Origin: Capitulum mitella
Taxonomy: Eukaryota > Arthropoda > Thecostraca > Pollicipedomorpha > Pollicipedidae
NCBI GenBank assembly: GCA_030062745.1
Contig: CP099842.1
Coordinates: 27,024,307 to 27,088,306 of the forward strand
DNA: 64,000 nt
Direction of reading: 5' to 3'
The notes under the pieces are model-generated. The model had not been told where the DNA came from and ran no database searches. It saw only the letters and a list, made by a program, of their open reading frames with translations. Within the stretch, counting starts at the first letter, position 1; each line of letters starts with the position of its first letter. This document shows, piece by piece, positions 10,601 to 41,113 of this stretch. Position numbers and translations under genes: made by a program.

Positions 10601-13600
10601 TGCTAGACACGAGAGCGCCGTTACGACTGACGCCGGGGAATGTTAAGACCGCACTGACGGCAATTACGTCAGACACTCCGCTGGAACACGGCCACGTCCC
10701 CACTCTCCCAGTGCTAACAAAGCAGTCTGGCGAGTCCATGACAATCGAAATCGTGACGGCTATTCGCGATACAGACGGCAACGTGACGCAGTGCGACGGG
10801 ACGTCACCTCGCGTGACGTGACAAGGTGTAACGTTAATTGCTGTAGTTACACGCCATGTGACGCGGCGAGACCTCACCTCAAGCGGCCTCGCATGGTGCG
10901 ACATCGCACGTGACATAACGTGACGCCGCGGGCTACTCACGGTCGAGCTTCTCCTGAGCGCGGCTGGCCCTCTCCCGGCTCGAGAAGTGCACGAACGCGA
11001 AATCGCGCAGCTTCTTGACGCGCTCGACGCCGCCGTCGGCGGCGCGGCTGAATGCGTCCCTGATCTGGTCCTCGGTGGTGGAGAGCAGCAGGTTTCGCAC
11101 GTAGAGCACAGTCACCTGCGGCGCCGCCGGCACGGGTCAATGCGAAGAAACGAGGGTGGCGCCGCCTGGGGACTTGGGGGTCATCGTCAGACGCACACAC
11201 TCGAAGAAAGGACTGTCTGAGAGCAGGGTCGGACTCTATCAAGAGTACCATCACGGAGTGTCTTTCACGTCACGACAGCAAGGCCGAAAACGTAAATCTG
11301 AAGCGGTGGCCAACTTTTTTCACGGTGTGTCCGGTCGACATGGGCATGAGGCGTCACAGGCTGTCCATGAGGGTGCTTGTGTTTTGAAGATGTGTGCACA
11401 ATAGCCCAGCACAGAACACGAGACCACGCGACCTCGCCATAACGGACTAGCTAACCAGCAAAAACAAACGTAGGAGAAGATAGATTCCCCTGTCACTGGC
11501 GTCACAGGTTCACGCGTGTCACGGAGACTGAGCCATCGGTCTTGTAATGCGCCTCAGTCTGGTTTTGTAAATCACAGTAGGGTGAAAGTGCCGCTCTGCT
11601 GTGATTTACAAAAGCCACCATGGCACCACGTCACGTCACGTCACGTCAGGTCACAATAGCGCTCCGCGGCACCACGTCATCCGTCACGTGTTTTTCACAT
11701 GGGAAGGAAAGGATCGTTTTCCTTTTCCTTTCATATGAGGAAGGGATCGCTTTAATCCAGGTTCCCTTGCTGAAGGGCTAGGACACTTGGCTGCCGTTTA
11801 GCCTGGCACGCCAGCGACGCAGTTCAAATCGTTAGCAATGACCACACCAGGACAAAACAACCAGCACACCAGTCAAACCCCTTCTCCAGCCAGGTCGCCC
11901 ATGGAGCTGTACCTCCGGACAGCTGCACCGACCTCAGAGTAAAAGAGCACCAACGCTCACGGAGCCCTCCTGGCGGTCTCTGATTTCCTGCACACGGCGG
12001 CTGGCTGTGCCGGCAGCGGGCACTGACCCGACCGAAACACAGTCGGACAGATGCGCCTCACCCGCGCACAGGGGCCCACGCCGGGACGGTGGGCACACGC
12101 CTTACCGGGCCGTCCCCAGGTCCGCAAAACATCACACCGTCGCAGTCCCGGACAACCACTGCATCGCGTCGGCAACGGGTGGCGTTTCCCGTGAGTCAGC
12201 CCTGCGAGTCCCCGGTGTGGCGGTTATCGGTGACGGTGACGCGGACTGCGTTACAAATGTTCCGCCGCGTGGTCTGAAGCCAGGCCCATTAAAGATGCCG
12301 TGATTCACAAACAAAGCGGTGTTTCTTCTTCGACGGTAAACCGGGGTTTGAGATCAAGCACTTACACGAGAAAACAGGGCAGGGCTATCACCCTCCCCCC
12401 ACGCCCCGGTGGACTCGTCCTGCGACCCGGGGCCGTTCGTCCCCAGGCTGAAATTCGAGCCCCCACGCCGGCGAGTGTGCGGGAGCGACGACAAACGCCC
12501 GGCTACAGGTCACGTGATCGCGGTTTCACTACAGGTCACGTGACCGGCGGGACTCGGCGCGTTGTGCGCCGGCCCGCAGCACGAACGGAACGGCCAAGGC
12601 AGGGTGACTCGCAAGCCAGGCAGTCGAAAATCGACCACAGCAATTATGTTATGACGCATGCAAACTCCATCGCTCGGCTGAGCGAACACAGCAGGTATAA
12701 TGAAACTAAGGGACACGACACGTTTTAAGCTCGCTACCGGGGACAGTTCACCTATCAGCAATTCACAATCTCAATCTGCGCCTGAGCCTGAGGGGCGGCG
12801 GCATCATGGTACGAAATTCGTGATTCTCAATGTGAGTTCCCCGTGCCAGTCCCGAGAGTCTGACCAACGAGGTATCCCCATTGTGCAAACTATGGAATAA
12901 CATGCAACACGCGAACAGTGGACTGCAGCAGCATGATAGTACGAGCTAAATGCCAGTGCCAGCTGAAAGTCATGGGATGACGTCATGTCCCGCCTGTCCT
13001 TACAAAGGTAAAAATCAAAATAAACGGCGTTCGTCTACAGCGTTATCAACGCCGCTTGATAAGAGTCATCACCGTAGACAACAGGTCGGCGAACGGCTGA
13101 AGCCAGGTCAAATGGGACCTGTAAGCACACACGAAACAGGAATTCGTAAGTGTGAACCAGGAGGGGTGAGGGTGACAAATGAGGAGCGTCAGATTTTGTC
13201 CAATTACCATGCGTTTCTTATTCGTCTAAATGACGTTAAAATGTACAGGCTCCCGGCTTCAGGCATGATCATGAAAATAAACAGCCTTCTTTATAACGGG
13301 AGTAGCTTTTTTATAGTCAACCACCCATGAACAGACGACCAAGAGTGCTCTTCTATCCAGTCCCCGCGACAAAAAGAACCATATGTGAACACCTCCGTTA
13401 GGAAAAACGAAAATGCAGCGTCGCGGCACTACATGGTAGGAAGGCGAAAAGAACAAGGTGAATGCACTACAGAGTAGTTACTAGACCCAACGTTAATTAT
13501 CGATACGTGGTAGTCTGCAAGACTGACAGCTGTTCCCACCAGAGTTAGCACGCACAAAAAGGGGTGTCCGTCTAGACACAGGAAAAGCACTTCCAGAACT

Positions 13601-16600: not shown

Positions 16601-18793
16601 ATTTGATTGCGAATAATATTCAGTGGCGAAATGAGATATTTGACGAATCAAATGTTTTCTTCAACTATGTTCATTCTATGCCAGGAAAATCAAAGCCGAA
16701 ATAACCATGTCTTTTCCGATTTCATTTCATTTTAACTATAGTTCTTTTGTTTCACGAATCTGGACTACTCGTTGAAGATCGCGAGTGTCCAGCAGGGTTG
16801 CACATCAGATTTTTGTTCTTGGTGTCGGGACATAATTTTTGTTTTGGAGTACAAGACTTAGCAAACAGTAATCCTTGTTTAAGTTGGCGTTCTTGATGTA
16901 ACTCAGTTACGACATCATATACCCGCTTCTTACTGAATGGAGGCAGTCACTTCCTTGCAGTCAGAACTTTGTCAACATGACTGCAATGTAGCTTTTTGAT
17001 ACAGGCACAAGATCAAACTTCTGGAGTATTACATGTTTTTGGAGCACGTATCTTCTGGAGTTCTTTAACACCAAAATAAAAACGGCACCTTTTCCACCTA
17101 GGCTAATAACCAACACGAATAATACCGAATCTTAACATCGCACGACCTATCTAAAAATTATTAATGCGCGGTTCGCACTGCAAAAACATGTTCCACATCA
17201 TAATAACGCAATCAGGACCTCCCAAATATTTCAGGCCCATTAGCCGTCTATCGGGGCTAGGCAGCGTCGAAAAACGATCACATCTTTATAACGAAAACAT
17301 GGAAACATTTTCACGGATTCAACTGGGCAATGTTCATCTAAAAAGGATTTCTCGAGGTTGTAAGCTTCGAACAGGAAATGATAGCCAACTTAAAACAACT
17401 GCCCACTCCACATCAAACAATTTTCCACTCCCACGCCATGACAAAAAATTATTGGTAGACAAAGACCAGTTTATATCTGCACGCCAAACCGGCAAAATTT
17501 GACGGTCAGGCGAAGATATGCATAATTTGGCATTTATTCCAATACCATGACAACAATTACCAACCAATGACAAAGACGTTATGATTTTTCACTAATGAAG
17601 TCAATATTCTATGATTTTTCCACAATCACGCCCTTGCTCAAACATACTTTTGAGACACCCGCACAGACTTTTGAGTCAGAAATGGTAGTTATTTCGGCAT
17701 TTCTTGAAACTAGAAAAGTACAAACGATACACAAACGCTATGACGAAAAATTTGCTTCCTATCATCTGCAGATATCAAGCAGGCCACAAAAACTTACGAA
17801 AAAGCGAGAACTTATGAAAACGATATACTCGCAGAAGATATTGGTTAACTTTAGCGCCGCACTAAATGAGGCTAACGTTTTCGCGAGTGATATTTTCCAC
17901 AACAGCATATTAACCGCAGCCAGCTTCGTGAGTATTTTATCGGTGTTCTTTCCCGTTCATATGCAAAGAACCACCACGACCGCCGACAAACAAAACCAGT
18001 CGCGGACGGGCAGGCCGCAAGCCCCAACACTTGGTTTCCAGCCGACCGTTCCTGGCCAAAGGAGCACCCACCTTCGACATTGTCTCCTCGTCAACGTCCG
18101 GCTCCGGCTCGGCCCAGTCGACGGCGATCGTCTGACCCCAAAGCTGGATCCGGCCTGGGATCAGCTTGCGGCGCGCCATGGCCGCCGCCTTGTGATTCTT
18201 GTACTCGACGAAGGCGAACCCGCGCGACTTGCTCTTGTCGGTCACCGAGCTGTACACGATCACGTCCACCACGCCCTCAGTCACTTTGGACATCTCCTCC
18301 AGGATTTCCTCGCGGACCTTGTTCTTGGGCAGGCCGCCGACGAAGAGTCGGCAGTTGTCGACCGACTTGACGACGCCGATGCAGCGGCCCTTGCGGATTT
18401 CGTAGTTGTTGAGCCGGCGCACGGCCAGGCTGGCTTCGGCCGGCGTGCTGAACATGACGAAGGCGTAGCCGCGGTTGGTCCCGCTGAAGTCCATCATGAG
18501 GCGCACCTCGTAGATGGTGCCGACCGTCTCGAAGACGGGCGCCAGCTCGTCTTCGAACAGGTCGCGTGGGATCTTGCCGACGAACACCTCGCTGCCCTTG
18601 ACCGGCGGCGGGCCGGTCCAATTGGGCGGCGGGCCGCCGTACTTGCGCTGTCCGTTCTCCTGGATGATGGTGTAACCGGTGCGCTCCATCAGCTTCAGCA
18701 GTGCCATGTCGTTCTTGGCGGCGGTGGCACGGCCCTCGGAGCGAGACGGCGGTGGCGGCGACGACGCATCGGAGTGCTTTTCGTCCGGCATGC
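4601..18793 (-). CDS. A1CF/RBM46/RBM47-family RNA-binding protein (complete, 9 coding exons, 587 aa)
   Basis: Coding exons on the minus strand: 18793-18072 (ATG at 18791), 11115-10941, 8780-8609, 8199-8064, 7603-7517, 6415-6302, 5830-5701, 5296-5144, 4677-4601. All junctions have GT-AG and compatible phases, and the coding total is 1764 nt. Domains: an N-terminal [19 protein letters not shown] block; RRM1 about 68-146 ([15 protein letters not shown]); RRM2 148-230 ([15 protein letters not shown], then AVDWAEPE); RRM3 241-315 ([14 protein letters not shown]); an RGRG-containing segment near 370-380; and a C-terminal DND1-type dsRNA-binding domain about 428-511. The length equals that of vertebrate A1CF/RBM47. 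Known family roles are mRNA editing cofactor, splicing and mRNA stability, in nucleus and cytoplasm. I cannot say which vertebrate paralogue it matches best. The CAG before the ATG-bearing exon implies at least one upstream non-coding exon, which I did not find. Confidence 0.93.
5144..5296 (-). CDS. RNA-binding gene coding exon 8: C-terminal linker
   Basis: 2 + 50 codons + 1, containing [20 protein letters not shown]. The acceptor at 5297 (CCGGCAG) was chosen over a second AG at about 5270 because only it keeps the phase. Donor GTGAGT. Confidence 0.75.
5701..5830 (-). CDS. RNA-binding gene coding exon 7: dsRBD second half
   Basis: Continues [10 protein letters not shown] and ends [21 protein letters not shown], the last helix of the dsRBD. 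Acceptor CTGCAG. Donor GTCAGT in phase 1. Confidence 0.88.
5925..6128. repeat. Pentanucleotide (TCAGC)n-rich tract in intron 6 of the RNA-binding gene
   Basis: Scattered AGCTCAGC/GGCTCAGC motifs culminate in four to five perfect CAGCT units at about 6108-6126. Confidence 0.7.
6302..6415 (-). CDS. RNA-binding gene coding exon 6: dsRBD first half
   Basis: 38 codons beginning [20 protein letters not shown] and ending QLFVYK. This is the helix 1/beta 1-2 part of the DND1-type dsRNA-binding fold. Acceptor CGACAG, donor GTCAGT. Confidence 0.92.
7517..7603 (-). CDS. RNA-binding gene coding exon 5: linker before dsRBD
   Basis: 29 codons in phase 0, with the conserved NP.TLKP element ([10 protein letters not shown]). 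Acceptor GTTTCAG, donor GTAGCT. Confidence 0.88.
8064..8199 (-). CDS. RNA-binding gene coding exon 4: Gly/Arg linker
   Basis: Encodes ISSPGQPIF then [16 protein letters not shown], corresponding to the AAGVRG..GRG linker of A1CF. Acceptor CATCAG, donor GTCAGT; 1 + 45 codons. Confidence 0.8.
8609..8780 (-). CDS. RNA-binding gene coding exon 3: end of RRM3
   Basis: Acceptor CCGCCAG. The split codon restores His, then [20 protein letters not shown], which closes RRM3 as in A1CF. A Pro-rich, Phe-rich tail follows. Donor GTAGGC is weaker than consensus but fits the phase. Confidence 0.85.
10422..10429. promoter_or_regulatory. CRE octamer TGACGTCA
   Basis: Perfect palindromic cAMP-response element in intron 2 of the RNA-binding gene; a second lies in intron 1 at 12978-12985. 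Sequence match only. Confidence 0.2.
10941..11115 (-). CDS. RNA-binding gene coding exon 2: RRM3, first part
   Basis: Starts [20 protein letters not shown] after CCGCAG and contains RNP1 RDFAFVHF. It ends in phase 1 at donor GTGAGT. Confidence 0.93.
11563..11613. repeat. Perfect 15-bp inverted repeat, 21-nt loop
   Basis: TTTTGTAAATCACAG at 11563-11577 and its exact reverse complement at 11599-11613. It could form a hairpin or be the termini of a tiny foldback element. Confidence 0.85.
12503..12545. promoter_or_regulatory. Two E-box/CLEAR-like GTCACGTGA sites
   Basis: A 15-bp direct repeat (CTACAGGTCACGTGA) occurs twice 26 bp apart. The second copy extends to the perfect palindrome GGTCACGTGACC. 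Such sites bind bHLH-zip factors in other animals; function here is inferred. Confidence 0.3.
14200..14240 (+). mobile_element. Penelope-like element tail with degenerate hammerhead-like motif
   Basis: CCTGAAGATGGCC, a short GCC/GGC stem and GGAACGTTGAA resemble the CTGANGA-stem II-GAAACG core found at the ends of Penelope-like retroelements. The GAAA of the core is changed (GGAAC), so a ribozyme would probably be inactive. Confidence 0.35.
16808..17083 (+). mobile_element. 280-bp inverted-repeat element, family R3, copy 1
   Basis: Begins TTTTTGTTCTTGGTGTC and ends with the imperfect inverse (ACACCAAAATAAAAA). It shares the middle (GTAAT..TGTTTAAGTTGGC, CTTGCAGTCAGAA, TTGTCAACATG) with copies at 32.9 and 44.3 kb. 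No ORF, so a non-autonomous element. Confidence 0.6.
18072..18793 (-). CDS. RNA-binding gene coding exon 1: start codon, RRM1 and RRM2
   Basis: The first in-frame ATG is at 18791; the open frame further upstream has only a GTG and sits behind a TTGCAG acceptor at 18794. The exon encodes 240 codons ending VDEETMSK, donor GTGGGT. The Pro/Ser-rich N-terminus ([11 protein letters not shown]) is less conserved than the RRMs. Confidence 0.93.
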
Positions 18794-19934
18794 CTGCAAC
18801 AGACGCGTCAGCCACGAGTCGGTTTGCCAGCCGGCCCAACACTCAATGGCGAGCTGGCAGCGGCACTGGTACCTGTCGCGCTCGCCGATATCGCTATCTT
18901 ATCGGCTTCCGCTGAGTGGCGGCCGCGGCCGCCCGCGTGCCTCCTATCCAACACTGGGGCTAGTGACATCACTCGCCAAATATATCATGACCCGTACTTC
19001 CGCGAATCGTGATAACACAACGGTCATGGGTGGCGTTTTCTTATCTGCAGCTTGCTGCGCATTGACAAAACACAATCCTCAACACGTAAACCCTTCAGAG
19101 ACCAACACACATATGCTTAACCCGTGAACATGCAATACGCACCTTCGCACTATTACATTTGTCCATATCAAACTACTACGATTGTTATACATCTCCCAGT
19201 CATCTTTACGAGGCACATGCGTTATCACCACGTAAATGGCGAATTCTTGACAAACGAAAAAATTATCAGAGACCCTCACCTGAGCTCCAGCACTTCAGAT
19301 AATCCTCATGAAAATACAGTTGTCGCCATTCCTCGTAAAGCGTGCTGACCTCCCCCATACTCTATTAGGCCGAATTCCAGATATCAAATCGAACCATATG
19401 GACCTACAAATTGCTTCTCTTAGGTTTAGCAGCACGCACTCACTAACCAACGCACAACGCGCACCCGCCAACTATATGATACCGCCACACGCAGAGCGCC
19501 ACTACCTCGACTGGCGGCAAATATTCAAGGTCGTTCATTCTACAGCAGAAATGTCTGGAGAGAATTTGGCGCGAAACAATGTCGCAGTACACACAAAGAG
19601 CCGCGCCACGGGTTGTTGACGGTAGGTTTTTCTTTGCGTCGGGATTCGCATAAAACGTTCCATTCAAAGAATTTTTTACTTTCTTCTGAACGTACTTAGC
19701 AGAATTGATATGCATAAATACGTTACATAAATATTGCTACGTTTTTAATGATATTGCTTGAGTTTGAAAATTGTTTCCACGTTCTCCATTTAAATATTCC
19801 AAAATGAAAGCATTAACCGACTGCATGGATTGCTCGAGAACATTCTGTGTTTCAGATCGTGAGTTACATCCAGCCTATCTGAAAGATGCCAGACATGTTG
19901 CCGCACATAACTAGCATTGCTTGTTATAAATTCC
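18794..19934. other. Upstream of the RNA-binding gene coding start
   Basis: Should contain the 5' leader and perhaps the promoter of that gene, but no TATA box, initiator or donor site could be picked with confidence. GC content falls sharply beyond about 18.95 kb. Confidence 0.3.
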
Positions 19935-21254: not shown

Positions 21255-22532
21255 GCGTTAACACGCGCACTGGAAGGGGGTCTTTTTGTCTCCCCACCTG
21301 TTTTTCTTGAAAATTTCTAGAACGGATCGGAGCTGGCTGCTGCTACTTCGTGACATTTATGACAATTGAAAACTCCTCAATTGACGCAAGAAAGTCGGAA
21401 ATTGGCCGAAAATTTTTGAAGTTCCAAGCATTTGAAGTCAAGTGAACATAACGAAAATAATGGTCATCGCTGACAAATGGGAACTTTGTGAAACGACTAG
21501 CGTTTTACCTAAGAATACCGCTTGAACACAATCAGGCGACGTCATTCGGACATAAGTGATGGATGTACCAAGACAAAGCCAGGGTCAATAAGGGTCAAGG
21601 TCATAAAAGGTCAAGGTCAACCATCTTGTGACCTGATCCAGATTTGCCTTGCAACATGTCGGTTTGTATGAAATTATCATTCAGAGACCCTAATAAAAAC
21701 ACGTGTGCGCATACTAGTACGCTTACATATACCAGGGTCAGTGAAGGTCAAGTTCATCAAAGGTCAGGGTCAAATATCTTGTGGCCTGGTCCAGATTTGC
21801 TTTGGGACATGCCTATTTGTATGAAATATCCATTCAAAGACCCTAACAAAAACACATGTGGGCACATGGATACGCTTATAAATGCCAAGGTTAATACAGA
21901 TCAAGGTCAAGGGTAACTATTTTGCGACCTGGTCCAGATTTGTTTTGCAATATGTTGATTTGTATGAAATATGCATTCAAAGACCCTATTAAAAACACGT
22001 TTGGCAAACTGATACTCATATGTGTATACACATATACATATGCATACATACATATGGAAGCAATCAAATGTACCGATGTTGGCTACCTTTACTGAAAATA
22101 CGCCAGAAGATGCGTGTAGCGCCTTCATTTGCACTCAAGCTGTCCCGTGTTGCTCGAAATCTGATCTGCAAAAGATGAGAAATGACGACATAGGTCAATG
22201 ACCTGAAATGACCTCGGCCCGAAATCCTCAGTCAAGATGTCAAATGAATGGAAGTTGTCGTACTCCAAGTTTCAACGTTCAAACAAAGACCCTTTTCCCG
22301 TTCCGTTCGAAAAGTTGTACGGAATGGCCTGTATGGGCAGAGAAGATTTCCAAAGTTGACCTTTTCGACCCCATTTGACCTTGAAGATATTGACTTAAGG
22401 TCATGAAAATGGCACACAGTGTAAATCGTTATGGCCCTACTCTGTTCACAAAATTTGATGTCTCTAGCTCTTTCCGTTTCCGAGATCGGAGGGGATCCTT
22501 TCGGACCCCCTTTCCAGCGCGCGTTAGCGCGA
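21255..22532. mobile_element. 1.28-kb inverted-repeat DNA element with internal tandem repeats
   Basis: The left end (TTAACACGCGCACTGGAAGG then G-run) and the right end (C-run, then TTTCCAGCGCGCGTTAGCGC) are inverted relative to each other over about 25 bp. Between them lies a three-copy 143-153-bp tandem repeat. No transposase ORF. It sits between R2 copies B and C. Confidence 0.5.
21575..22020 (+). repeat. Three tandem copies of a 143-153-bp unit
   Basis: Each unit holds GACCTGRTCCAGATTTG, then TTTGTATGAAAT, CATTCA.AGACCCTA and AAAAACACRTKTG. Phased landmarks fall at 21628, 21781 and 21924. Units carry one or two TCAAGGTCA motifs. Confidence 0.85.
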
Positions 22533-25958: not shown

Positions 25959-28900
25959 TCAGAGCGGCAGCAGACGGCGGCCGCCCTCCCCGCCGGCGGC
26001 CGGGTACTTGGCCAGGTCGACCAGGTCCTCGTCGTCCTCCTGTGCGGCCAGCTGGTAGCCCTGACGCGGGTCAACGGCCGGTCGGCCGAGGCGCACCGTC
26101 AGTAGCGCGGCCGCCTGCGCCGCCAGGCACACGGCCACGCACGCCGCCAGCGCGTACGTGAGCGCGCGCGGCTCCAGGGCCATGAGCGCGCCCACGCCGG
26201 CCGGCAGGAGCATCTCGCCGAGCGCGCCGGCCACGACCAGCACCGCCGTCAGCCGGCTGGTCACGTGCACGTGCTGCTCGAGCCAGACCAGCGCCGACGG
26301 GAAGACGGAGGCCATGCCGAGCCCGGCGAGGCCGCAGCCGAACAGCAGCGCCGGCCGGCTCCAGTGGCCGGCGGCCAGCAGCACGGCGGCGCCCAGTGTC
26401 ACCAGCGCGTAGTCGGCCAGCAGCACGGCGGCGGGCCTCAGCAGGCCGGCCACGCACACGGACAGCGCCCGGCCGCCGGCGAACAGGCCCCAGAACACGG
26501 ACGTGACGTACGAGCCGCCGGCGCGGCTCAGGTGCACGCTGGCGCGCACAGAGAAACTCATCAGCAGCTGGCCCATGGCCACCTCCATGCCGACGTAGAA
26601 GCAGAGCACGACGGCCATGAGCGCCACCAGAGCGACCGTGTAGCAGCGCGACGGACCGGCGCGAGCCTCGGCGGCGGCGGGCGCGGCGCGCCGCGCGCGC
26701 GGGTCGTACACGAGCAGCGCCAGGAAGAACAGCGCCACCAGCAGTAGGCAGCAGCTGGCCAGCAGGTAGAGCTGCGCCAGCGGCGTCACGCCGTGGACGG
26801 AGGCCGAGCTCGAAAGCCGCGTCAGCAGGCCCTCCTCCTCCGACGTGTCGTCGTACGTGCCCGGCTTGTGCGGCCGCGCCGGCGCGTCGGCCGCCGGCGC
26901 CGAGGTGCCGGTCTGGTCGCCGTCCCCGGCGCCGGTCGGCGGCGGATTCGTCACGCTCTCGCCGGGGCGGTCGCCGCCGGCGGCCGGCGCGGGCGGCGCC
27001 TGGGCCGCTGTCGGGGCCTGCGTCGTCGCGCCGGACGGCTCGGCGCCGCCGCCGCCCGCTGCTGGCGCCTTCTCGCCGCCATCCTGCTCCGCCCCGGCTC
27101 CGGCGGCGGCCGCCTCTTCCGCGGCGGCGTGGGACGCTGCTGGTGGCGTAACTGCTCCCTCCTCCCCCTCCGACCCGGGGACGCTCATCTCGCCGCCGGC
27201 GGCGCCACGCTCCGTGGACAGCGGCAGCGGGGCGGAGCTGCTGGCGGGCGCGGCGGCCGCGGTGCCCACGGCCGGCGTCTCCCTCTCTATCGGGGGCGGC
27301 GGATCGGAGGGCTCCGCGACCGGCGCCGACTGGCCCCCGAGCGCCCGCTCTCGGCCTGGCGTCGCCGTCTGCTGGCCGGCCTGGCCGGTCTCGGGCGCCG
27401 GCTCCGTGCTGGCGGACTCGGACTCGTCGCCAGGCCGGCCCTGGTGAGTCCGCGCGGCTCCCTGACCGACAGCGGGAGCCGTGGGGTCGCCGGACTTCCC
27501 AGTGGGCTGGCCGATGCCGGTCGCTTCGATAGGGGTCTCAGAAGTCGGGGCCGGCTCCGGAGAGGGCTCGGCGCCGTTGGTCGGCGGCGTCGCCCTTCCG
27601 GAGCTATCCTCCGGCTTGCTCGCGTGATGGACGTTCTTGACCACCTCCGCAGCAGGATCCTTCCCGTTGCCCGCGTCGACGGCGGGGCCGGCAGCGTTTC
27701 CGGACTCTGTCGAAGCGCCGGCTCCGGCGCCGACTCCCGCCAGCGCCGCGCCGCGGTTACCCCCGCTTTCGGCGTCGACACCCTGCCCCGGTCCCGCGGT
27801 CGGCTCGGTTTCGTTTTCCGCTCCCGCCGTCGGCGCAGCATCGAGGCCCGGCCCGGCGGTGGGTTTCACTCCACCGTCCGCTTCCGCTGTAGGATCGGCA
27901 CCACCGTCGGCCTCGGCTCCAGCGCCGCCAGGCGGCGGACCGCTGGTCACCGTGCCGTTAGCCGGAGGAGGGTCGGTCCCCATGGCCGGCTTCAGGGTCG
28001 TCTGCGTGCCTCCGGCCGGTGGGGCGGTGGTCGCCTCATCCCCTGCAGGCTTGTCCGCCGGCGGCGGCCGCTCCGGCTCGGTGCGCGAGCCGGCTGGGCG
28101 CTGCGCCGGCTTCAACGGCGGCCGCGCCCACGTCTGGTCGTGCTCCAGCTTGTTGCCGTCGGTGAAGGCCGGCTTCGGCTTGGGCGTGTGGCGCGCGGCG
28201 CCGGCCGCCGGCGGCTCGGTGGCCGTGTGGTTGTCGTTCTCGGCGACGTCGGCGGGAGGCTCCGTCGCGGACGTGCCGTTCTCCATGTCGGTGGTATCTG
28301 CCGGACGTTGGGTCGAAGTGGGGGAATCAGTTCCAGCCGCGGCATCTGCTGGAGGTGACGAGTCGCTAGAGTTTCCGCCACCGCCGCCCGACGGCGCCAC
28401 AGTCGGGGCAGGGCTTCCTTCTTTTCCGGGCAGCGCTTCACTGGCTAACGGAGCCGCCATGGTAGAGGCGTTTCCGTCGCCTACGACAGGGACGGCGTCA
28501 CTTACCGCCGGCGTCGACGCCTGCAACGTCTGGGCGCCGCCAGCGGCAGTAGCACCGTCAGCTCCCCCGGCGGCGCCAGTCAAATTCCCAGTCGCGGTAC
28601 CGCCACCACCTCCACTGTCCCTCTGTCCCCCGGCCGGCGCTGGGCTGACCGTCACTCCAGCGGCGGCTCCAGCGCCGTCCTGTCGGCCGGCCTGCGGCGG
28701 ACCGGCCGTCACTCCGTCTCCCGACCCGCCGCTCTGCGCCTGCTGCTGCCTGCCGGCAACTGCCAGCCCGCCGGTCGGCGACAGGCCGCCACCCGCTCCA
28801 GCATCGTCGGCCGGCGGCGGCCGCGGCGGCCCGGCGCCGGGCGGTGCCGGCCCGCCGCCGGCTGCCAGCGCGGCAGCCAGCCGCTGCAGCCGTTCGTCGT

Positions 28901-29122
28901 CGAGCGGCGGCGCCAGCGCGCGCGGCAGCCGGACGGTGTGCAGGTGGCTGCGGCCCAGCAGTGCCGTGGCCGTGCCGTTGGTGTCGTTGTCCGGCGCGCG
29001 CCCGATGAACGGCACAGCCAGCAGCGGGGCCACGAAGGCGCCCAGCCCGAAGCTGAAGTGGATCGCCTGCATGTACGGCCCGCTCGATTTGCCCCAGAGG
29101 TCCAGCAGCAGCACGTTGCCGC
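25959..29122 (-). CDS. Transporter coding exon 4: TM5, mucin-like loop, TM6-TM12, stop
   Basis: A 3.16-kb exon open from GGNVLLLDLWG to the stop at 25961-25959. Loop sequence runs from about 28998 to 26790. The following hydrophobic stretch PLAQLYLLASCC...FFLALLVYDP is TM6, then six further TM segments. All third positions are strongly GC, which leaves long antisense ORFs open. Confidence 0.9.
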
Positions 29123-31397
29123 CTGCGGGCGGGTCAAGCCACGGTCAGACCGGGCCCGGGCCGGTCGGCTCGTAAGCCAGAGACCAGGCAGTCCAGGATC
29201 GGAAGAATTCCTGCACACAAAACGGTTTGGCTCGGAAACAGCCTTCAAGTTGCCGTAGAAACTTTAAGAACGAAAAAAGACCGGTGATGATAAAATAAAC
29301 ATAATGGGTCTTGTTTGTGGCAGTTAAAAGCCGCTCACACTTGGATCGATGCTCAATGGGTTCGGAACATTTGCTCTTAACCGCCCACCACCCCAACGAC
29401 AAGAAACGTTTCAAGACCACCGGCAGTCGGTCCAGACTGTCCCATCTCTCTCCCCCCCCCCCCTCCCGGCGGCCCACCTGTGTCCATGAATCCCATCGGC
29501 ACGCCGACGGCAGCGAAGGCGGCGTTCAGAGACCAGGCGGCGGTGAGCCAGGGCAGGGTGGCCATGCCGGCGGCCGTCAGCCCGATGCTGGCCAGCATCA
29601 TCAGCAGCCGGTTCAGCCGGTCGAACAGCAGGCCGCCTGGCGGGCGGCAGAGCGGTCAGCGGCGGACGGTCGGCGTGGCCGTGTCACGGGGGGGGGGGGC
29701 GACAGGGTCACGGCCACTGTGGACCGGGTCAAGCCCAGACAGTGGGAAGGGATCACCTGCATTGGAGATGGAGGTGGGTCAATGCAACGAGGTAGCGGTG
29801 ATCTCACCGGGAGGAAGGGGAGGTTCAGGTGCTCTGATGGAAGAGGGTGAGTCAAGAAAGCAGACAATACTCAAAGCCCTGCACATGCCATAAGACAGGT
29901 CTGAAAAATATCCTAACGATGTACATCATACTTTTATGCATTGCAATACAAACACGGAATAATCATTCAAGCTACAAACACAACACAGATGAGTCATTTA
30001 TCATATCACTTGGGTTACAATGCAGCAACGCCTTTTTCGGTAAAGGCATTCAGATGGGGAAAACGCCACTGAGTTAAAATGGCCAGACAGTGCAACTGCA
30101 AAATCGTCGACTGCCAGTCACGCCACCTGGATTTCGAGGAAAGCCAGTACAAAGTCACGCAACTTGAAGAATCTTGGTGAGACAACTGCTGATGACAGAG
30201 CCAACTCAAAGCAGAACAGTTTAAAGCTTACCGAAAAATTTGGAGTATAAAGTCCCCCGTAAATCCGAAAATGCGATTCACATAAAGACATCAAAGCGCA
30301 TTTATGCAAGGCGTTGACTGCAATGACGGTGAAATAACCTGGCTAACCGGAAATCGTACAATTTATCCACAGACATTTCAGCCAGATAGGGATTTCAAAT
30401 TACCTGTCCCAATTACATGACTTGGAATCCATGATGCGCCCAATGAAATGCCGACCAAAATATATAACCGCAATAGACAGCATGTCCAAAAACGCTGGCA
30501 CAAAGCCAGTTCTTCTCAAAACAAGATACACTTCCCCGCTCCCCGCCACCACAGGAAACGGGCACACCTGTCCGTACACACATCCTCGGTCAGAACAGCA
30601 CCACCCGCTGACCCACTCACTGAGCATCGAGCCGGCCAGGTATCCGACGGCGCGCCAGAGGAAGATCTGCGATATCTGCGCCAGCGGCGCCTGCACCTGG
30701 TCCCGCAGGTCGAGCAGCGTCGGCCCCGGCAGTGCCACGCACAAACCCTGCGAGCCGGCGCCGAGCGTCACAGGCCGCCGAAACAGCCAGTCCGCCCGGA
30801 GCCCGCCAGCGGCTGAGCACACACTCAGCGCACACTCCGCCAGATTGTCACAAGAGAGGTTTGGGGTGGGCGGGTAGCGTGATGGCGTATGAGGGACGTC
30901 AACGACTTACAGTGCTTTTCTGTGTATCCAACGTGGTACGGACAAGTTCAATTGTTTAAACGGACCGTCATTTCCGATCATATCGTTCATATAACCTTGC
31001 AACGACGACATTTTCCAACTACATTCATTCGCATTTTCGGAATGCGTGACTGAAATATATAAGGTCACGCAGAATAAACTACCACACTTTAAGCATGGCA
31101 AGTACCGACTTAAACAACAATGTGAAAATTCCGCCTCGTGCCGCTACGGCACGCCTGCCCACCACGGCCGTCCGTCCCCATCCCGGTCCTCCGGGCACGC
31201 ACCAGACAGAAGAACGCCAGACATATGGCGAGCGTCTTGACCAGCGCCAGGCAGCGGCCGGCGCCGGCGACGGGCCGCGGCGCGCGGCGGCGCCGGCCGG
31301 GCCGCGGCCGCGCCGGCGGCGTCAGCAGGGCGGCCCGGTCCTGCAGGCCGTCGTCGTCCTCGTCGCCGGCCGCGTCCGGCAGCGGCAGCCCGCTCAT
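25959..31397 (-). CDS. MFSD4/NaGLT1-like major facilitator transporter with giant mucin-like loop (complete, 4 coding exons, 1214 aa)
   Basis: Coding exons on the minus strand: 31397-31203, 30747-30621, 29636-29478 and 29122-25959. Phases fit throughout (3645 nt with stop). Family landmarks: GLCVALPGPTLLDL, GYLAGSMLS then GLLFDRLN, GVPMGFMDTGGNVLLLDLWG, MQAIHFSFGLGAFVAPLLA, SVFWGLFAGGRALSVCVAGL and GLGMASVFPSALVWLEQ. These match MFSD4A/MFSD4B (Na+-dependent glucose transporter 1) proteins of the plasma membrane; the substrate here is unproven. Family members are about 500 aa. This one is longer because about 735 residues (roughly 203-940) of Pro/Ala/Thr/Gly/Ser-rich sequence separate TM5 from TM6. 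The insert has about nine N-X-S/T sequons and no cysteine that I could see, as expected of an extracellular mucin-like domain. The C-tail is acidic (AAQEDDEDLVDL). Confidence 0.9.
26790..28998 (-). repeat. Coding low-complexity (PATGS-rich) segment inside transporter exon 4
   Basis: About 735 codons dominated by Pro, Ala, Thr, Gly, Ser, Glu and Asp, with loosely repeated motifs such as PTAGPG, ADGG and TEPP. Sequons include NDT, NGT, NLT, NAS, NSS, NHT and NET. No hydrophobic stretch long enough for a membrane helix. Confidence 0.85.
29478..29636 (-). CDS. Transporter coding exon 3: TM3-TM4
   Basis: Begins GLLFDRLNRLLMMLASIGLT and ends GVPMGFMDT. Acceptor CCGCCAG. Donor GTGGGC in phase 1. 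Confidence 0.9.
30621..30747 (-). CDS. Transporter coding exon 2: TM1-TM2
   Basis: Begins GLCVALPGPTLLDLRDQVQA after GCTCGCAG and ends GYLAGSML. Donor GTGAGT in phase 1; the split codon becomes Ser. Confidence 0.9.
31203..31397 (-). CDS. Transporter coding exon 1: N-terminus and start of TM1
   Basis: ATG at 31397; 65 codons. An acidic/Arg-rich cytoplasmic tail (GDEDDDGLQD, then PGRRRRAPRP) precedes hydrophobic LALVKTLAICLAFFCL. Donor GTGCGT, phase 0. Confidence 0.82.
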
Positions 31398-32530: not shown

Positions 32531-34450
32531 CCTCTAGCATTCCCAGTGGATTAGTGTTGTTTATCGCAATCCCAATTCCAATTTTTCCTGGATTTTCCGA
32601 TATCCGAACCGGAAATCGGTTGGACTGATCTATCACAAAAGAAACTGGACAGCTGACTGTATGCCAGCTGCCAAAAAAAAAAAAAAAAAATAATACAAAA
32701 CTAAATGTTCCCCAGTATTTCAGTTATAAACTCAATTCAAAGCATGGCACAAAAGTAGCACTTTGATACAGCCATTCAACATCCTGGCTGGCTATGCTTC
32801 TGCACTTTGCCTACCCCATTCATATCCACATCTTTAAAAACTCATCCACAATACACACAACTGAAGTGAAACAAGACCATGTCTGGGAATTTCTTTTTTT
32901 GTTTTTGGTAGAACATGATTTTCGTTTTGGAGTGCAAAATTTTGCAATGAGTAATACTGGTTTAAGTTGGCATTCTTGGTGCAATTCAGTTGAGACCTTG
33001 CCTGTTTCTTATTGAATAGAGACAGAGCCTTTTGCTTGCAGTCAGAAATTTGACAACATGGCTATAATGGGTCAATAATATATGCTATAATCAACACAGC
33101 ATCAAGATTCTAGAGTATGAAATGTTTTTAAGAGCAAGGTCCTTTGGTGTTCTTCAACAGTAGAAAAAATCCTTTCGAATCCTGAGCAAGACTGTTGCTA
33201 GTCAAATCAATAATTATCGATTTCTAAGTGAAAACTAGTGTGTACCACATTTGCTCCAATTTTACTGTCTTTGTTATATCCAAACAGAATGCAAGATATT
33301 ATGCCACCACTTGCCAGAACAAACCAACATACTATACATGGAAACTGAAGGACACAAATCACCACCTGTAGTAATGTCTGCTACTAAAGTGCTACTGGAA
33401 AATATGCCAGAATTTTCTTGGACAGGCCAGGTTTTGGGAGAACTTTTAAAATTCACAAGACTTCCTCCTCAAAAATTGGTTCGAAACCGATATTTCCGAA
33501 TACAACAACAACTCTGCACAGCGACAACTCTGGAAAACATTTCTGCCATCCTAGAGGCCCTCTGGCAGTTATAAAAGACCTTTTAACAATCTCAGGGCCC
33601 CTGTTATCATGGGCCCTCTGAACATACAACAAACATGGGTGCTGAATGAGCTCGAAGTCGGCGCGCCACTTAGCCGCAATAGTCAATCAGTCAGTCAATC
33701 TGAACGTCTCTGATGCCTGTATTAGAGATACAGGTTCCTCTGTTAAGTGGGGTATATTTGGCAGTCTGAGGGCTCACCCAGCCATATCAGAGACCTCACT
33801 GAAAGTCTCAAGGGGAGTTTTTCCATGTCAGGGACCCATTTAACACAATCAGGGGCCCTCTGGCCATCCAGGGGACCCATGCCATCTTAGATGCCTTCTT
33901 ATTGTCTTTGCCCTCGCAGGACCCATCTCACCTCTTGGATGGTATCAAGGGCTCTCTGCCATGTAGGGGCCCATCTTGCCATCTCAGGACCCACCTGACT
34001 TTCCTGGGGCCTGCAACTCCACCAAGAATACCTCACATTTTCAAACAGGTCAGCATAGCCCATTTGGTTCCCTCTTGAGATTGAGAAGCTCACTGATGAA
34101 TCCCTGTTCAGGGGCCTCCTGCTGGCCAGGAGTTTCTTATGCCATCCTAAGCACCCTCTTAAGATCTTGCCATCTCAGGAAGTGTTCGGACACTTGATGC
34201 AGTCTCATGGACTCTGCTATGATGGGGCTCTGCTGTGGTCCCAGGGGCCCTTTGGGAGTTTCAGGAGCCCTTCTATCCATCTCAGGGGCCATCTAACCCT
34301 CCCTGAGATCCTTCACACTGCATCTAGAGCCTGTCAAGTTTTGACAGAGACCCTTACAAGTCCATAAAGAGCCCCATTGGAGCTGCACTTGAGTCTGAAA
34401 GGGGCCTCAGGAGTTCTTCTCAGGCCTAGGGGGTGTGATCACCCCCATTG
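32120..34450. repeat. Decayed array of roughly 30-bp CTCAGGGGCCC-type units
   Basis: Dozens of variants of a CATCTCAGGGGCCCNTCTNGC-like unit recur every 28-35 bp, interrupted at 32.53-33.54 kb by an AT-rich insert carrying R3 copy 2. The same units occur at 20.33-20.56 kb inside R1 copy 1. Confidence 0.6.
32893..33170 (+). mobile_element. 280-bp inverted-repeat element, family R3, copy 2
   Basis: Same orientation as the 16.8-kb copy: GTTTTTGGTAGAACATGATT..., GTTTAAGTTGGCATTCTTGG, then TTGCAGTCAGAAATTTGACA. It interrupts the decayed 30-bp array of the region, so it inserted after that array formed. Confidence 0.6.
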
Positions 34451-34524
34451 CTCCCTGGATCCTCCCCTGAGTCATCATGCCATAGGCAGTGACTGTGTTG
34501 TCTGTACAGTTGCTTTATCACAGC

Positions 34525-34675
34525 ACAGGAGAGATCAGTGGAACAGTCCAGTCCTGTCACAGGTGAGATCAGAGGTGTAGTCCAGTCCCATAACAGGGGA
34601 GGAGGTTACTGGAACAGTCCAGTTCTGTCACAGGCAGCAGAACGTTGGCACAACAGTCTGGTTTTGTCACAATGC
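34525..34675 (+). repeat. Four tandem copies of a 34-36-bp unit
   Basis: Unit approximated by AGATCAGTGGAACAGTCCAG followed by TCCTGTCACAGGTG; copies diverge at about 20-30%. Confidence 0.6.
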
Positions 34676-35305
34676 TACAAAATCAGTAGGCAACGTAATG
34701 AATGTCTAAAATGCCAAAATAATGTCCCACATGATGCAAAAATGGCATCTGTGGCACTATTACAGGTACGGGGAAGGGGTATAGCTGTTGTACCCAATGT
34801 TTTCTGACTGGGGAAAAAAATCCACATGAAAGTCCTCCCTTCAAAGGGCAGTATGGTACCATGTGCAAGGTTATAATTTTTCTTTCCTGGCCTGAAGCTG
34901 ATGACAACAAAATGGAAAAATGAGAACAAAACAGAAGTAAATCATACCTTTGTGTGTGGCTAGTGGGGCAAGTGTACAAAGACCAGTATTGAGGATTATG
35001 TTAATGTGATGCACATGCACAGATATTTACACAGTTGTGACACACACTTACAGAAACAATGTACTGCTATTTCAGAAATGGCAGCAGACTGATAATCTTG
35101 CCATGTAGAAAGCCACAAAAATTGTTAATAGGCATTAATACAATGGGGTAGCTGGATGAATGTGCAGGGCAGGGCTGTTTGTTTATCTGAGGACAAAAGA
35201 ACTCATTTCACCTAATCCCAAGATTTTGAACACAAAAAGTCCCAATGTCTAAAAACTTTCAAAAGTGCCCAAAATTCTAACCTTACCCACAGGGCAACCT
35301 ATTTC

Positions 35306-36523
35306 TTAACCCGTCCCCGACTGGGGGGGGCAGTTGGCTGCCCCCCCCGAGGTTTTTCTAGGATTGCGAGAGAACCAACAAACACAGAGTCACGAAACTT
35401 TGTGTACCTTTTACTCCATCAATTTTACATCTTGTGTCAAAATCTTGACCTCAGGTCAGGTCAAGTGTCTGACCTAGGTCAGGTCAAACAGACCTATGTC
35501 AAAAAAAGTTTAGCGCCCTCTAACTTTTTCGCAAAACAAGATATCTCAATAATACTTTCAGGGATTAGTGATCGTGACAGATGCAACAAATCTGCTATCT
35601 CAGATTTTTCGGAATTTTTCGGGTCATTGACCTTAGGTCAAGCCCATTTTTAAGACATATTGCCGTTTTTTTTGGAAATTGACGGAATATTCCTTAACAT
35701 TTTTAGTGTGGAGTGAACCAGACATCTAGCTACTGTCATTAGGCAAAGCATCAATGACTTCCAGCCATTGACCTGAGGTCAGGTCACGAAAAACTGTAGT
35801 GGGCCAAAATGTACCACTGTCAAAATCGATGATAAATTACTCAGAATGTGTAGAAAATGGCAGAACTAGCTTGCACAGACGTAATTAATACCAGGAACCT
35901 CAAAAAGTTTGAAAAAGTAGCGTATTTTGGAAATAAACAGGCTATCGCGAATAAAGCTCCGCCACCTTCGTAGATTGGTAACTAATCAATTTTTCCAAAA
36001 TTTAAGCATGAGAAACCATCACAAGAACCACTAAGATCAATAAAATTGACATAGACCGTCTTTTTTCGCGAAAATAAAGGAACGCCAAAATTGGTTCCCG
36101 TCAATTTGTCAACGGCAGCGGCTCACAGTGACAGCTAGCGGGAGAATTACCGTGTCTTTAACTCAACGTTTTGGCATATATATTTAACAAATCTGGGGAA
36201 ATTAGACGTGTATGGCATCTGCGGACCTTTACTTGTGCGCTGGTGCCTTTACCTATGAGTTATTAGTCACAGCCCTTGAGATTCAGGCCATTTCTCGGTC
36301 TCATGCAGTCGGCTATGAGAAAACATATATAGGGCGTAAATTGGCTTATAGATTATCTAAAACTAAAAATGAGACCAGTTCTGAGCTCTACCCGTCACAG
36401 GCTTTCCAACGATATGCTTATTTTTATCATGCAACCAACTGTTTGTGAGTTAGAGGGGGGCAGTCAATTGCCTCCCCCAGTCGCCCATGTTTGAGACGGA
36501 CCTGGCGGTCGTGCCCGGGTTAA
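35306..36523. mobile_element. TTAA-flanked piggyBac-like non-autonomous element, 1.2 kb
   Basis: The left end reads TTAA-CCCGTCCCCGACTG and the right end CGGTCGTGCCCGGG-TTAA, so CCCG/CGGG termini sit directly on TTAA at both sides, as in piggyBac insertions. Just inside both ends is a G-run/C-run hairpin (GGGGGGCAGTTGGCTGCCCCCC at left; GGGGGGCAGTCAATTGCCTC at right). No transposase. Left part carries repeated AGGTCAGGTCA. Confidence 0.6.
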
Positions 36524-39500
36524 GCTAACAGCAGTTTTTTCATCTGCTCAGCATGCATATCATTTCAGCTAACAATCTAACCTGAGATGTGACAGCCAAA
36601 CTTTCAGCCAAACTTTCTGCTGATGTTAAGTTGTCAAGACATTCCCAATTTGTTCAGTAATAAGTCCATCCTTGCTAAGATAATTCTTGGTAATTCTACA
36701 ATATGAGGTATAAATATCAGGATACAAGTCCTTTTGGGGATGACATTTCATATCAATCTCAAAATTTTTTTAACTCCATCGTGATCTCAATTTTGTAGAT
36801 GTCCTATTCCAAATGCACAAAATTTTTGATGCATTTTGCACAAACAAACCAGGCTGGGCCAGGTTTAAATGAATATTACCTCTGATACATGTTTCAAGAT
36901 GAGATAATTGAGTTATGGCTAAAAGACTTCAGAAATGGTTTATAATATGCCCTTACTTGCACCATTTTTAATTCTACACTCAGTTTCCAAATCATTTCCA
37001 ACAACCCTAGCAACCCTGTAGTCCTGTTTCATATATTCTTTGGATGAATGCTTCATCGCAACAGAGACATATCAGGCCATGTAAATGATATCAGATGACC
37101 TGGATTGTAATATCATTAATGGGTGATAACAGAAACATGGTCTACTACTGCCAATGCTGCTTACGTATTCCCCATGTGCGTGTGATGAAGGTTTTAGGGT
37201 GCACCAACTATGTAGTCAAGAGTGCCTGTACATATCCTTCCCCTGGAATCAGCAATGTTTCTCTGATATGTTTCTGTGTCAGGCACATAGGAACTGACCC
37301 TGAAACCTGCGGAAATTCCCTTCATCGGTAATTACCTACCTGTGGTTTGGTTAGTGATCCGATTGAGGCTTCAATCGATGAATTCACACCCCATCAGCAA
37401 CAAAACCCAGGTCGGCGGGAGAGCGTCTTCTTAACTATTGGCAGAGAAAGCCCTACGTAAAACATTTAAGTTGGTTCCTAAGAAGTTTCCGCGTTGATGG
37501 GTATAAATTGCGTTATTGTAGCACTTGCGCCAATCTGTTCCTTCGAGAATGGAAGGCGTCGTCCTTATATATATAGCGCATTGGGGTCGTCGGTTCGATG
37601 TCGGTCGATTGCTGCGCAGCACAGACAAATCCCGTCCTTCCCTAAATTTCCAGAACGATTGTTTATATTTCCTAATTTTTAAGAATATGTCAAAATAAAT
37701 GCACTTAAATTTATTTAATCAATTTAAGCTCCTATCATTAAGTTTTGTTTGTTAAAAAAATTGTTCAGGTACTGCTTAAATTCTGATATTCAACATTAAC
37801 ACTTAAAAATACCTTCTAGAGTATAAAACAACTACGGCGACTTTCAGGCAAACATTGCGCTATTTTACCGCAAGGCTCAACACTGCGTAGTGGGAGGGCC
37901 GAGGACCGGGTGAAGTGGGTGGGCAACGCTCAGCTCCCGCAGCAGAAGGGGGTGCGGCCGTTAGAGCCAGTGGCTGCTCTGGTGAGACTTAAGAGTTGAT
38001 TGTGTTCAATGAGTGTATTTGGAAGAACCAGCAAACCCAGTCATGGAAAGACGCATATATATTTACAGCTGCTAGAACTGCCCTTCAATGTAAATTTATT
38101 TGTTTATTTATTCCCATGTTCTCAGAGGCACTGGCCCGTCACGATCTCATTGCACTTAATAGTGAACACTACAGGTAACTGTACTGACAAATGTTGATGT
38201 TTCCATCCATGTTACTGGAATGGGCAGTTACCTCTAACATGTTTGGTTTTGGTAGCAATTCTGCTGTGTATTGAATTGTTCTCATTAAAAAGGGTGGTGA
38301 CCTGGTCCCTATCTGATGTAAAAGCAGACAAATTGCTGCTTTAGGATGGTGTTCCATGGCTTCTTGAATTTTTTCCAGTGATGCATTTTGCATCAAATGT
38401 AATGGTGATTTTGATGTGTATGGTATGCCATTGTGTTTCACATATCTTGTTTTAAGCTCCCAGTTTCCATCAGACATTGACTGGCACTTTTGATAACACT
38501 ATGTTTTCTAGGAGGTAACTCTACTTGATAGTATAAAGGCAAATGCAAATCCATCAGACAATGTGTATCCATATTGAGTGTGTGCAGGCATAACAGCATC
38601 ATATGCCATGTGCATGGTTGTCTCCATTTAGCCTTTGCCTGAAGAAAATTTTAAAGCTGGCATTTTCCCATTGCTAGGTAAAAAATGCTATAAGGGAAAT
38701 GGTGTGGAAGTCTACCCATCAAGATGTTTGGAGTGTTCATTCAGTAGAAAAGCTGGAGTGTTCATTCAGTAGAAAAGCATTTTTATTCTCTTTGTAATCT
38801 CAGTTTCAGGTGATGTGTAGAACTCTGTAATTCACACATACTGGTTTTATGTCACAAGCTGTTTCACAAAATTTTAAGTAAATGGTGCATGAACTTGATG
38901 TGGGGAGCATTTTTATCTGCCCATTTTTATCCAAGTACCACAATTTTGTACTTGTGAAACTAAATTGTCATTGCATTTCTTAGTGCATCATTAGTCTTCA
39001 TAGAACTTAATGATGTCTTTAATATTCTCTGAGTAATGTTTCACCCTTGGAACAATCTTAAGTGCATGGACATATGAAATTCACAGAATATTTCATATAC
39101 ATCATGGGCATTTTCTCCCCTGTTTACAGCTGACATGAGGATAGTGTGATAAAAGAAAGCAGTCATCTCCTGACATAGAGTCAGCTATCATCAATGGTTT
39201 CATCATGACAGTGCTTGGTACTGTCCACCTTCCACCTGTTGGGAAACATCTCCCAGACCTGAAGGTATGTGCCAGTTTTCTTCTTATTGTTTCCAAAGTG
39301 CATCAGTCATTGCATATGTTATGGAATTCCAGATAACTTGAGACATTGCTAGGCTACTGGTACAATGCAACACAAAAGAGTAGCAAAATTACAGGAGAAC
39401 AAATCCATTCCTACTCACATAAGCACAATATCTGTCAGCATTTGCAAAGTTCCCAAAACATATATTCATGAGCCTGGAGGGACTTACCTTAGTTTTATGT

Positions 39501-39900
39501 CATGTTGCATAGTTCCTGCTTTCTACAGTTTAATTTATTAGCCATTCATACCATTAGGATAAGAAGTACTCAGTATTATTTGTATTGTGCAATACTTTGT
39601 TGTGCATAATCTCCTGTTTATGATGCAACTTAAGAATGCCAATTCTTCCAGCACTAATTTGTAAGGTACTGTATGCCTGGGAAGAGGCCCACAAAGCATG
39701 CGTGATGTGCATTTGCAGTGTGTTGTTTGTTCAGCATTGTAGTATTTTGCATTATGGATGTCTTCTGGTGGGGTTTGACCTTGTCAGCATGCTGGCTCTG
39801 TCTGTTTGGCACTCTGGCAAACCATTGGTGAGATGTCAGCCCTTGCAACATTGTGCAACATTCCACAACATTATGCAGCAAGAGTCAGATACATCTCAGA
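36524..39900. other. AT-rich gene-free block
   Basis: No gene recognised. Minus-strand fragments at 38477-38169 and 39296-39060 look like decayed coding sequence but match no family I can name. A short GC-rich island lies at 37.88-37.99 kb. GC content jumps at about 39.9 kb. Confidence 0.4.
38729..38778 (+). repeat. Perfect 25-bp tandem duplication
   Basis: The unit starting TGGAGTGTTCATTCAGTAGA is present twice without mismatch. Confidence 0.95.
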
Positions 39901-41113
39901 CCCTGCTGGATGCGCGTGGGTCCCCCTCCCCGGCAGTGCCGCACCTGCCTGACGCAGCTGTGGCCGCTCCCGCTTCCGTCTTAGAGGAGCCGTCGCCTGC
40001 TGTGCCTTGGGGACGTCTCATACTGTCGGTCTGTGGATAGTCGGTTTGTGCCGTCAGCATCAGAACTTGTAGGTGGAGTCGTGCAAAGGTGTGTCGATCG
40101 GCTCATGCTCAGAGAAAGGATTTTTCCAACGATGCGTGAGTAAGCAAATCCGGGCGGTCGAATGGATTGGCTAATGGGTTCCTCTGTCCTCCACAGACGC
40201 CCGGTCACTTGGGTTCTCGAAAACATTACGGGTAAATAGCCCTCGAACGTTGTGGACGTGAATTTTGAGCGGCTGGGTCCCTCCCCTTGCTGAGTGAAAA
40301 TCTGTTTGTCTCCGAGGCCATGGACACTGCTAACCCCTGCCAAGCGCCGATCCGTTCCCGCTGGGTCTTCACCCTCCCCCACCCCATGTCAATTGTTTCA
40401 GCGTTAGATGCGTCCCTGTCCGTCGTTTGTCCTCTAATAAACTCCTGATGAGCCCGTTTCCCGTCCAGCGGTGAAGGGTTATCAGCCGCAACAGATTCCT
40501 CCAAAGCAGAGTAAATGCTCGACTCCAAAATCATGAGTAATGAAGACTTAATTCCAACCTGACGGACTCTGGATCGGCAGAGGACGTTGTCTGCACCACA
40601 GTCTTGTCCCTGTCCCTGGAATAACTCGGAGACCTTTCTGGGGTGGTCCCTGACTGGTGAAGCCATGCGGCATGGTGTCTCAGTCTGTGCCGATAAAAGT
40701 GCGGTGGTCAGGACTCGCTTCCAATCTAAGCACACTTATTGGCCCCGGCCGCAACTGAGTGGCTTTATCGAGCTATCGCTCCTTGACCGGTGCCGGGCCG
40801 TTTTGTGCCTTGGTTTAGACCTCGATCTCTCCGTGGCGCCTTTCCTTCGTTCCTTACCTCGCGAACAGGGGCCACCAGTCCTGGCCGGGTCCTGGGCTCC
40901 CACTGGGTGTCGCGATATCCCCATCCCCACTGCTGTGGTTCCAGCCCACCCGTTCTTAGGTGACTGTCCATCCCCAGGTGACATCCTCGCCACACCGGCG
41001 CCCCGGTTCACTCGCTCCGCAAGTGATTATCCCCTTCCTCGTAGGCGGAACCCCGCCGCCAAGCCGGAATCAAGCGTACCCGTGACGGCGTCTGCCAACC
41101 CCAGGCTGCTGTC

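Follow-up and report, generated by a model that had tools for sequence, protein, structure and literature searches.

The human transporters MFSD4A and MFSD4B (SLC60A1/SLC60A2, NaGLT1) appear in a table of PMC5627054 with 514 and 518 amino acids, respectively, and the same table describes MFSD4B as an intracellular protein with sodium-dependent glucose transport. For the SV2 proteins, PMC5438990 reports N-glycosylated loops that matter for activity or targeting, and it discusses SV2A as a keratan sulphate proteoglycan within the vesicle gel matrix. In the case of bovine PepT2, activity was lowered by removing all N-glycosylation sites (PMC9497230). Among the matches listed in a literature search on giant, mucin-like or disordered transporter loops and on MFSD4/SLC60, which drew mostly on sources other than subscription journals, no such protein appeared in the titles or the openings of abstracts.

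The window, i.e. the whole stretch of 64 kb that was analysed, contains on the minus strand (31397-25959) a four-exon gene with GT-AG introns. The encoded protein of 1214 amino acids has no internal stop and is a major facilitator superfamily (MFS) transporter. It shares the 12-helix MFS plan with MFSD4A and MFSD4B, and its core without the loop between TM5 and TM6 comprises 472 residues, thus somewhat fewer than the 514 and 518 tabulated for the complete human proteins (PMC5627054). In contrast, the TM5-TM6 loop itself comprises 742 residues, as compared to the few dozen at most that would follow for human MFSD4A/B from the total lengths given in the same source. A short loop at this position is not known to define the MFSD4/SLC60 group. 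The preliminary description of this DNA had put the loop at 735 residues; the giant size holds, and the motifs quoted there enclose 748 residues, of which 742 remain when the stretch is cut back to the edges of the membrane. The gene is composed of the following parts:

31203..31397, minus strand: exon 1, with the start codon, the Arg-rich N-terminus and TM1 (GT-AG model)
30621..30747, minus strand: exon 2, with GLCVALPGPTLLDLRDQ... and TM2 (exon model; the joined N-terminal half matches Pfam MFS_1)
29478..29636, minus strand: exon 3, with the loop 2-3 motif GLLFDRLNR, TM3 and most of TM4 (exon model; helices by eye)
25959..29122, minus strand: exon 4, with the end of TM4, TM5, the giant loop, TM6-TM12, the C-terminus and the stop codon
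28998..29081, minus strand: TM5 region, GPYMQAIHFSFGLGAFVAPLLAVPFIGR (hydropathy and exon model; helix in a low-confidence structure model)
26772..28997, minus strand: the 742-residue loop, aa 203-944 (hydropathy, composition and coding tests)
26700..26771, minus strand: TM6, LYLLASCCLLLVALFFLALLVYDP (hydropathy)

Upstream of the start codon, an in-frame stop is found at 31430 with no ATG between. The model of exon 4 is based on the open frame, the exon model and eight hydropathy peaks read as TM5-TM12; together with TM1-TM4, which were placed by eye in exons 1-3 and agree with the profile match, this gives 12 transmembrane helices. As claimed previously, the frame stays open from TM5 to TM6: it runs from 29144 to 25959 on the minus strand (1061 codons), and a single exon spans the region from before TM5 to the stop codon, loop included. 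The first codon of GLLFDRLNR is split between exon 2 and exon 3, and the completed sequence fits the MFS loop 2-3 motif, G-x-x-x-D-R-x-N/G-R/K. The junction of exon 3 and exon 4 restores ...MGFMDTGGNVLLLDLWGKSSGPYMQAIHFSFGLGAF..., which presumably resembles an MFSD4-like stretch. The 3' end of the gene is without support, because neither AATAAA nor ATTAAA occurs in the 3.5 kb that follow it on the minus strand; one AGTAAA is found at 25343.

Just upstream of the transporter gene, the stretch 33000-40000 is strongly depleted in CpG (observed/expected 0.36, TpG 1.3), as compared to 0.94-1.09 for four further stretches of the window that are largely non-coding, and looks like a methylated domain. 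Elsewhere in the window, Pfam RRM_1 matches indicate probable exons on the minus strand at 17940-18842 (two RRMs) and 10936-11136 (one RRM). These may belong to a single gene, which would then have three or more RRMs and presumably resembles the A1CF/RBM46/RBM47 group. On the plus strand, 54940-56562 is a large exon that encodes part of a membrane adenylyl cyclase, with a Guanylate_cyc match at E 2.6e-62 and an AC_N match that stays below its cut-off; its third-position GC is 0.98 over 54940-56440. Tandem arrays are located at 21579-21998, 44614-44816, 48392-48685 and 53652-54023, with periods of about 153, 30/61, 37 and 27 bases, respectively.

Profile searches were carried out with and without the loop. 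The joined core, with the loop left out, matched Pfam MFS_1 over profile positions 1-346 of 347 (E 2.8e-16, 59.8 bits, cut-off 33.4) and the N-terminal 201 residues matched it at E 6.6e-11; with its loop retained, exon 4 had no match to a Pfam family at E 0.1. In NCBIfam, the nearest family to the joined core was bacterial TsgA, over most of the core and with 24 bits where the cut-off is 221 (E 1.6e-5), and the single halves of the protein gave weak matches to gluP (exon 4 alone, E 0.0048), SfMCT and an aromatic-acid symporter. No PDB relative of exon 4 was detected by phmmer at E up to 1. The sole PDB match of the joined core, a chloride channel at E 0.33, is at chance level and was rejected as a solved relative. 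The 201-aa N-terminal half gave 81 pattern matches in prokaryote genomes, a collection without animal genomes, and 6 in viral contigs; none was confirmed, and both searches are uninformative on animal orthologues. Regarding the proposal of an MFSD4-type transporter, the MFS part is borne out by the MFS_1 match. The MFSD4 label, in turn, comes from the motifs GPTLLDL, DTGGN and GPYMQA-HFSF-GAF-APLLA, which we take to resemble the MFSD4 family, whereas the profiles gave MFS_1 and a TsgA match below its cut-off. Membership in the MFSD4 (SLC60) sugar-transporter group is the most likely assignment on these motifs and is best treated as a lead.

The loop is true protein-coding sequence, as seen from stop codons, periodicity, amino acid usage and the sequons described below. 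Its 742 codons contain no in-frame stop, while sequences of the same composition generated by Markov models contained 8.3-8.8 on average; stop-free loops occurred in 2 of 3000 simulations at order 0 and in none of 1500 at either order 1 or order 2. The other two sense frames over the loop hold 15 and 10 stops. For the central 515 codons of the loop the period-3 chi-square was 157, as compared to a maximum of 27 in 1000 order-2 simulations, 4.0-5.5 in the three introns of the gene and 2.3-5.6 in five control stretches. Furthermore, Arg amounts to 3.5% of the loop against 19.3% expected from random translation at order-2 composition, and in the same kind of random DNA Cys (0 in the loop) and Trp (0.1%) would be expected at 1.2% and 1.4%. 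This depletion of Arg, Cys and Trp indicates that the loop is more than GC-rich DNA that is open by accident.

An artefact, be it an assembly error or a chance open frame, is consequently hard to maintain, and we consider it very improbable. It could appeal to two long frames on the plus strand over the same DNA (536 and 515 aa), but 1000 codon-shuffled loops gave similar antisense stop counts, so that these frames follow from the codon make-up of the loop, and an antisense gene was rejected. A chance open frame was likewise rejected, since the stop, periodicity and Arg tests all oppose it. Regarding the assembly, the frame is unbroken from TM5 to TM6, the window contains no N and the loop no homopolymer longer than 5; thus, the sequence carries no sign of an assembly fault.

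Third-position GC was between 0.90 and 1.00 in windows of the core. In 60-codon windows of the loop it was 0.60-0.63 over aa 301-450 and 0.65 at aa 541-600, with 0.98 at aa 451-510 and again 0.97 at the C-terminal end of the loop, and even the dips lie above the overall GC of the introns (0.49-0.56). Codon bias is therefore relaxed in places within the loop. Along 26772-28997 (minus strand) the dips give the impression that parts of the middle arose later than the edges or experience weaker selection on codon use.

In composition, the loop holds 20% Ala, 16% Gly, 14% Pro, 9% Thr and 7% Ser, i.e. about 51% Ala, Gly and Pro. It is acidic (88 acidic versus 41 basic residues over 748; pI 4.4) and has a mass of 70 kDa. 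The most hydrophobic window of 19 residues averages 0.81 when the edges adjoining TM5 and TM6 are excluded, in line with the absence of a membrane helix noted in the preliminary description. Cysteine is indeed lacking, and the ‘about nine’ glycosylation sequons counted there are exactly nine N-X-S/T sites:

27807..28988, minus strand: stretch with all nine sequons (sequon count)
28988, 28979, 28586, 28472, 28373, 28280, 28232, 27959 and 27815, minus strand: codon starts of the sequon Asn residues

Nine of the 17 Asn residues of the loop are thus in sequons, where 2.34 would be expected, an approximately fourfold enrichment (P 1.3e-4 from 100000 shuffles, and 5e-5 from 20000 that were confined to blocks of 60 residues) that agrees with the proposed potential for N-glycosylation. 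Outside the loop there are none (0 of 3 core Asn), and the five other reading frames contain 0, 0, 1, 0 and 0. The nine sites show seven different middle residues and are therefore not copies of one unit. They are confined to the first 400 residues of the loop: in its first half 8 of 10 Asn belong to sequons, in its second half 1 of 7, which is at chance level (about 1 expected).

The topology was read with the positive-inside rule. GLLFDRLNR after TM2, the Arg-rich N-terminus and DPRARR after TM6 place the loop between TM5 and TM6 outside, and the sequon enrichment gives independent support for an extracellular or luminal position. The loop that had been called extracellular is thus outside by both lines, whether extracellular or luminal depending on the membrane that would host the transporter. 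In human MFSD4A, the termini and loop 6-7 are given as cytoplasmic (PMC5648162), in agreement with the topology here. Altogether, we estimate a probability of roughly 60% that the loop is translated at full length and lies on the extracellular or luminal side. By its composition it is probably disordered, with a narrow margin: in the charge-hydropathy plot its value of 0.430 lies barely on the disordered side of the boundary at 0.437. A single-sequence structure model of exon 4 (mean pLDDT 37) showed helices at the TM5 and TM6-12 regions and, in the loop, short helices early and late with nothing regular over the 676 residues between; its confidence is very low and it is too poor to decide on disorder.

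What kind of chain this is can be discussed by comparison with mucins, with which the loop has Pro/Thr/Ser-containing low-complexity sequence in common (PMC2515642). The preliminary description called the loop mucin-like; on this reading, a true O-glycosylated mucin domain would be fused into the transporter. A screen in Drosophila, as outlined in PMC2515642, used more than 25% Ser plus Thr and at least four ten-residue repeats, and a laxer rule of Lang et al., quoted there, uses at least 20% Ser plus Thr and at least 5% Pro. The laxer values are reached locally, in 100-residue windows covering aa 316-512 and 647-827 (378 of 742 residues), not by the loop as a whole; the Thr/Ser ratio is 1.38. 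Another rule asks for at least nine predicted O-glycosites in 50 residues (PMC9209528), and 317 of 693 such windows have at least nine Ser/Thr, a count of residues rather than of predicted sites. Ser/Thr with Pro at -1 or +3 are slightly enriched (41 of 119 versus 31 expected, P 0.019). However, the share of Ser plus Thr is 16% in the loop and 12.8% in the whole protein, with 25% in the best 100-residue window of the loop, so the loop lies below the stricter definition of PMC2515642 (more than 25% of the protein, plus repeats). Repeats are weak, of 10 and 20 residues, and restricted to the region near aa 560-610, where the best 20-residue self-match scores 53 as compared to 43-50 in eight shuffles that were scored less exhaustively. 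Within the loop, Tandem Repeats Finder reported nothing beyond two short GC-rich segments (47 and 55 bases), and a further repeat search gave diverged pairs and triples only. A recent tandem expansion of the loop was rejected, as long tandem arrays are lacking. Of the term ‘mucin-like’, this leaves about half of the loop passing the laxer rule, against 16% Ser plus Thr and no long tandem repeats overall. A genuine mucin domain thus appears quite unlikely, and the loop is better described as an acidic, Ala/Gly/Pro-rich and probably N-glycosylated chain with mucin-like patches.

It could also be asked whether the whole loop reaches the mature protein, as it contains one credible in-frame splice pair:

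27462..28505, minus strand: candidate in-frame exitron of 1044 nt, aa 366-713, with donor GCG|GTAAGT and acceptor CGGCTCCCGCTGTCGGTCAG

Removal of these 348 codons in some or all transcripts would leave a loop of about 394 residues, or provide a switch between a long and a short form. On scores derived from approximate donor and acceptor frequencies, valid only relative to the gene's own introns, the GTAAGT donor at 28505 (5.46) is stronger than the three real donors (1.38-4.21), and the acceptor (exon start 27461; 2.32) is within the real range (1.84-2.57). The segment is also stop-free, has exon-like GC and a length divisible by three, all of which are listed among exitron features in PMC10985678; the same list includes weaker splice signals, whereas the donor here is strong. 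Moreover, among 1000 codon-shuffled loops, an in-frame pair scoring higher than the weakest real sites was present in 41.8%, and a pair at least as strong as that observed in 10.8%. As such pairs arise by chance, the donor and acceptor are no evidence of splicing. The segment retains coding periodicity, and it carries six of the nine sequons, an enrichment by itself (1.86 expected, P 0.005). Altogether, an exitron seems unlikely. As a separate observation, the loop has one donor above the weakest real one where codon-shuffled copies have 4.4 on average, as if cryptic donors were avoided, and the lone strong GTAAGT is the exception to this apparent avoidance.

A more serious rival, although still on the improbable side, is that the loop is low-complexity sequence without a function, by which a GC-rich exon has expanded and which is tolerated owing to its position outside the membrane. 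GC-rich DNA favours Ala, Gly and Pro (16, 13 and 12% expected), these amino acids account for 40% of the N-terminal 60 residues as well, and codon bias is weaker inside the loop. Against this, long tandem arrays as left by recent slippage are not seen, Arg is cut from the expected 19.3% to 3.5% and sequons are enriched; the latter two indicate selection at least for composition and glycosylation. The functional alternative starts from an MFS transporter with 12 helices, which most likely belongs to the MFSD4 (SLC60) group and whose TM5-TM6 loop would have grown to 742 residues. Once translated, the loop would enter the ER lumen and be N-glycosylated mainly in its N-terminal half. The resulting chain, rich in Ala, Gly and Pro, would be unstructured and negatively charged, with both ends anchored in the membrane next to the outer mouth of the transporter. 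Such a chain may act as a tethered brush, in which bulk, hydration and N-glycans would hold proteases and macromolecules away from the transporter, and which may determine how the transporter is spaced in the membrane and how long it resides there, by analogy with the glycosylated loops of SV2 and PepT2 that serve targeting or activity. This function is the likeliest one, if tentative, and not exclusive of the rival explanations. For a protein of the MFSD4 type, a shield at the cell surface is disfavoured by the intracellular location listed for MFSD4B in PMC5627054. In its most complete form, i.e. a nutrient transporter with a built-in glycan brush, formed by a double-tethered disordered loop at the outer pore mouth and possibly shortened by 348 residues through the exitron to adjust the thickness of the shield, the proposal is speculative and somewhat improbable.

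Should the mature protein retain the loop, a disordered domain larger than the transporter itself, whether extracellular or luminal, can be part of such transporters. They would then offer a testable system for the effect of a tethered glycan brush close to the outer gate on substrate access, protease resistance, membrane spacing and residence time. For gene predictors, the locus is a warning, as such a GC-rich exon may be split or its loop called an intron.

Other carriers with long loops allow to place this architecture. The long loops of SV2 and PepT2 are folded, that of PepT2 having about 200 residues. SV2A, SV2B and SV2C (SLC22B) are also MFS-type proteins with N-glycosylated luminal loops (PMC5438990), but their long loop is described between TM7 and TM8 (PMC5627054), whereas here it lies between TM5 and TM6 and is probably disordered. 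PepT2 (SLC15) likewise has a large extracellular loop with N-glycosylation sites, which is situated between TM9 and TM10 rather than between TM5 and TM6 (PMC9497230). Finally, PMC5627054 presents MFSD6 as an atypical MFS carrier whose extracellular loop is likewise relatively long, in this case between TM3 and TM4 and in a protein of 791 amino acids in total.
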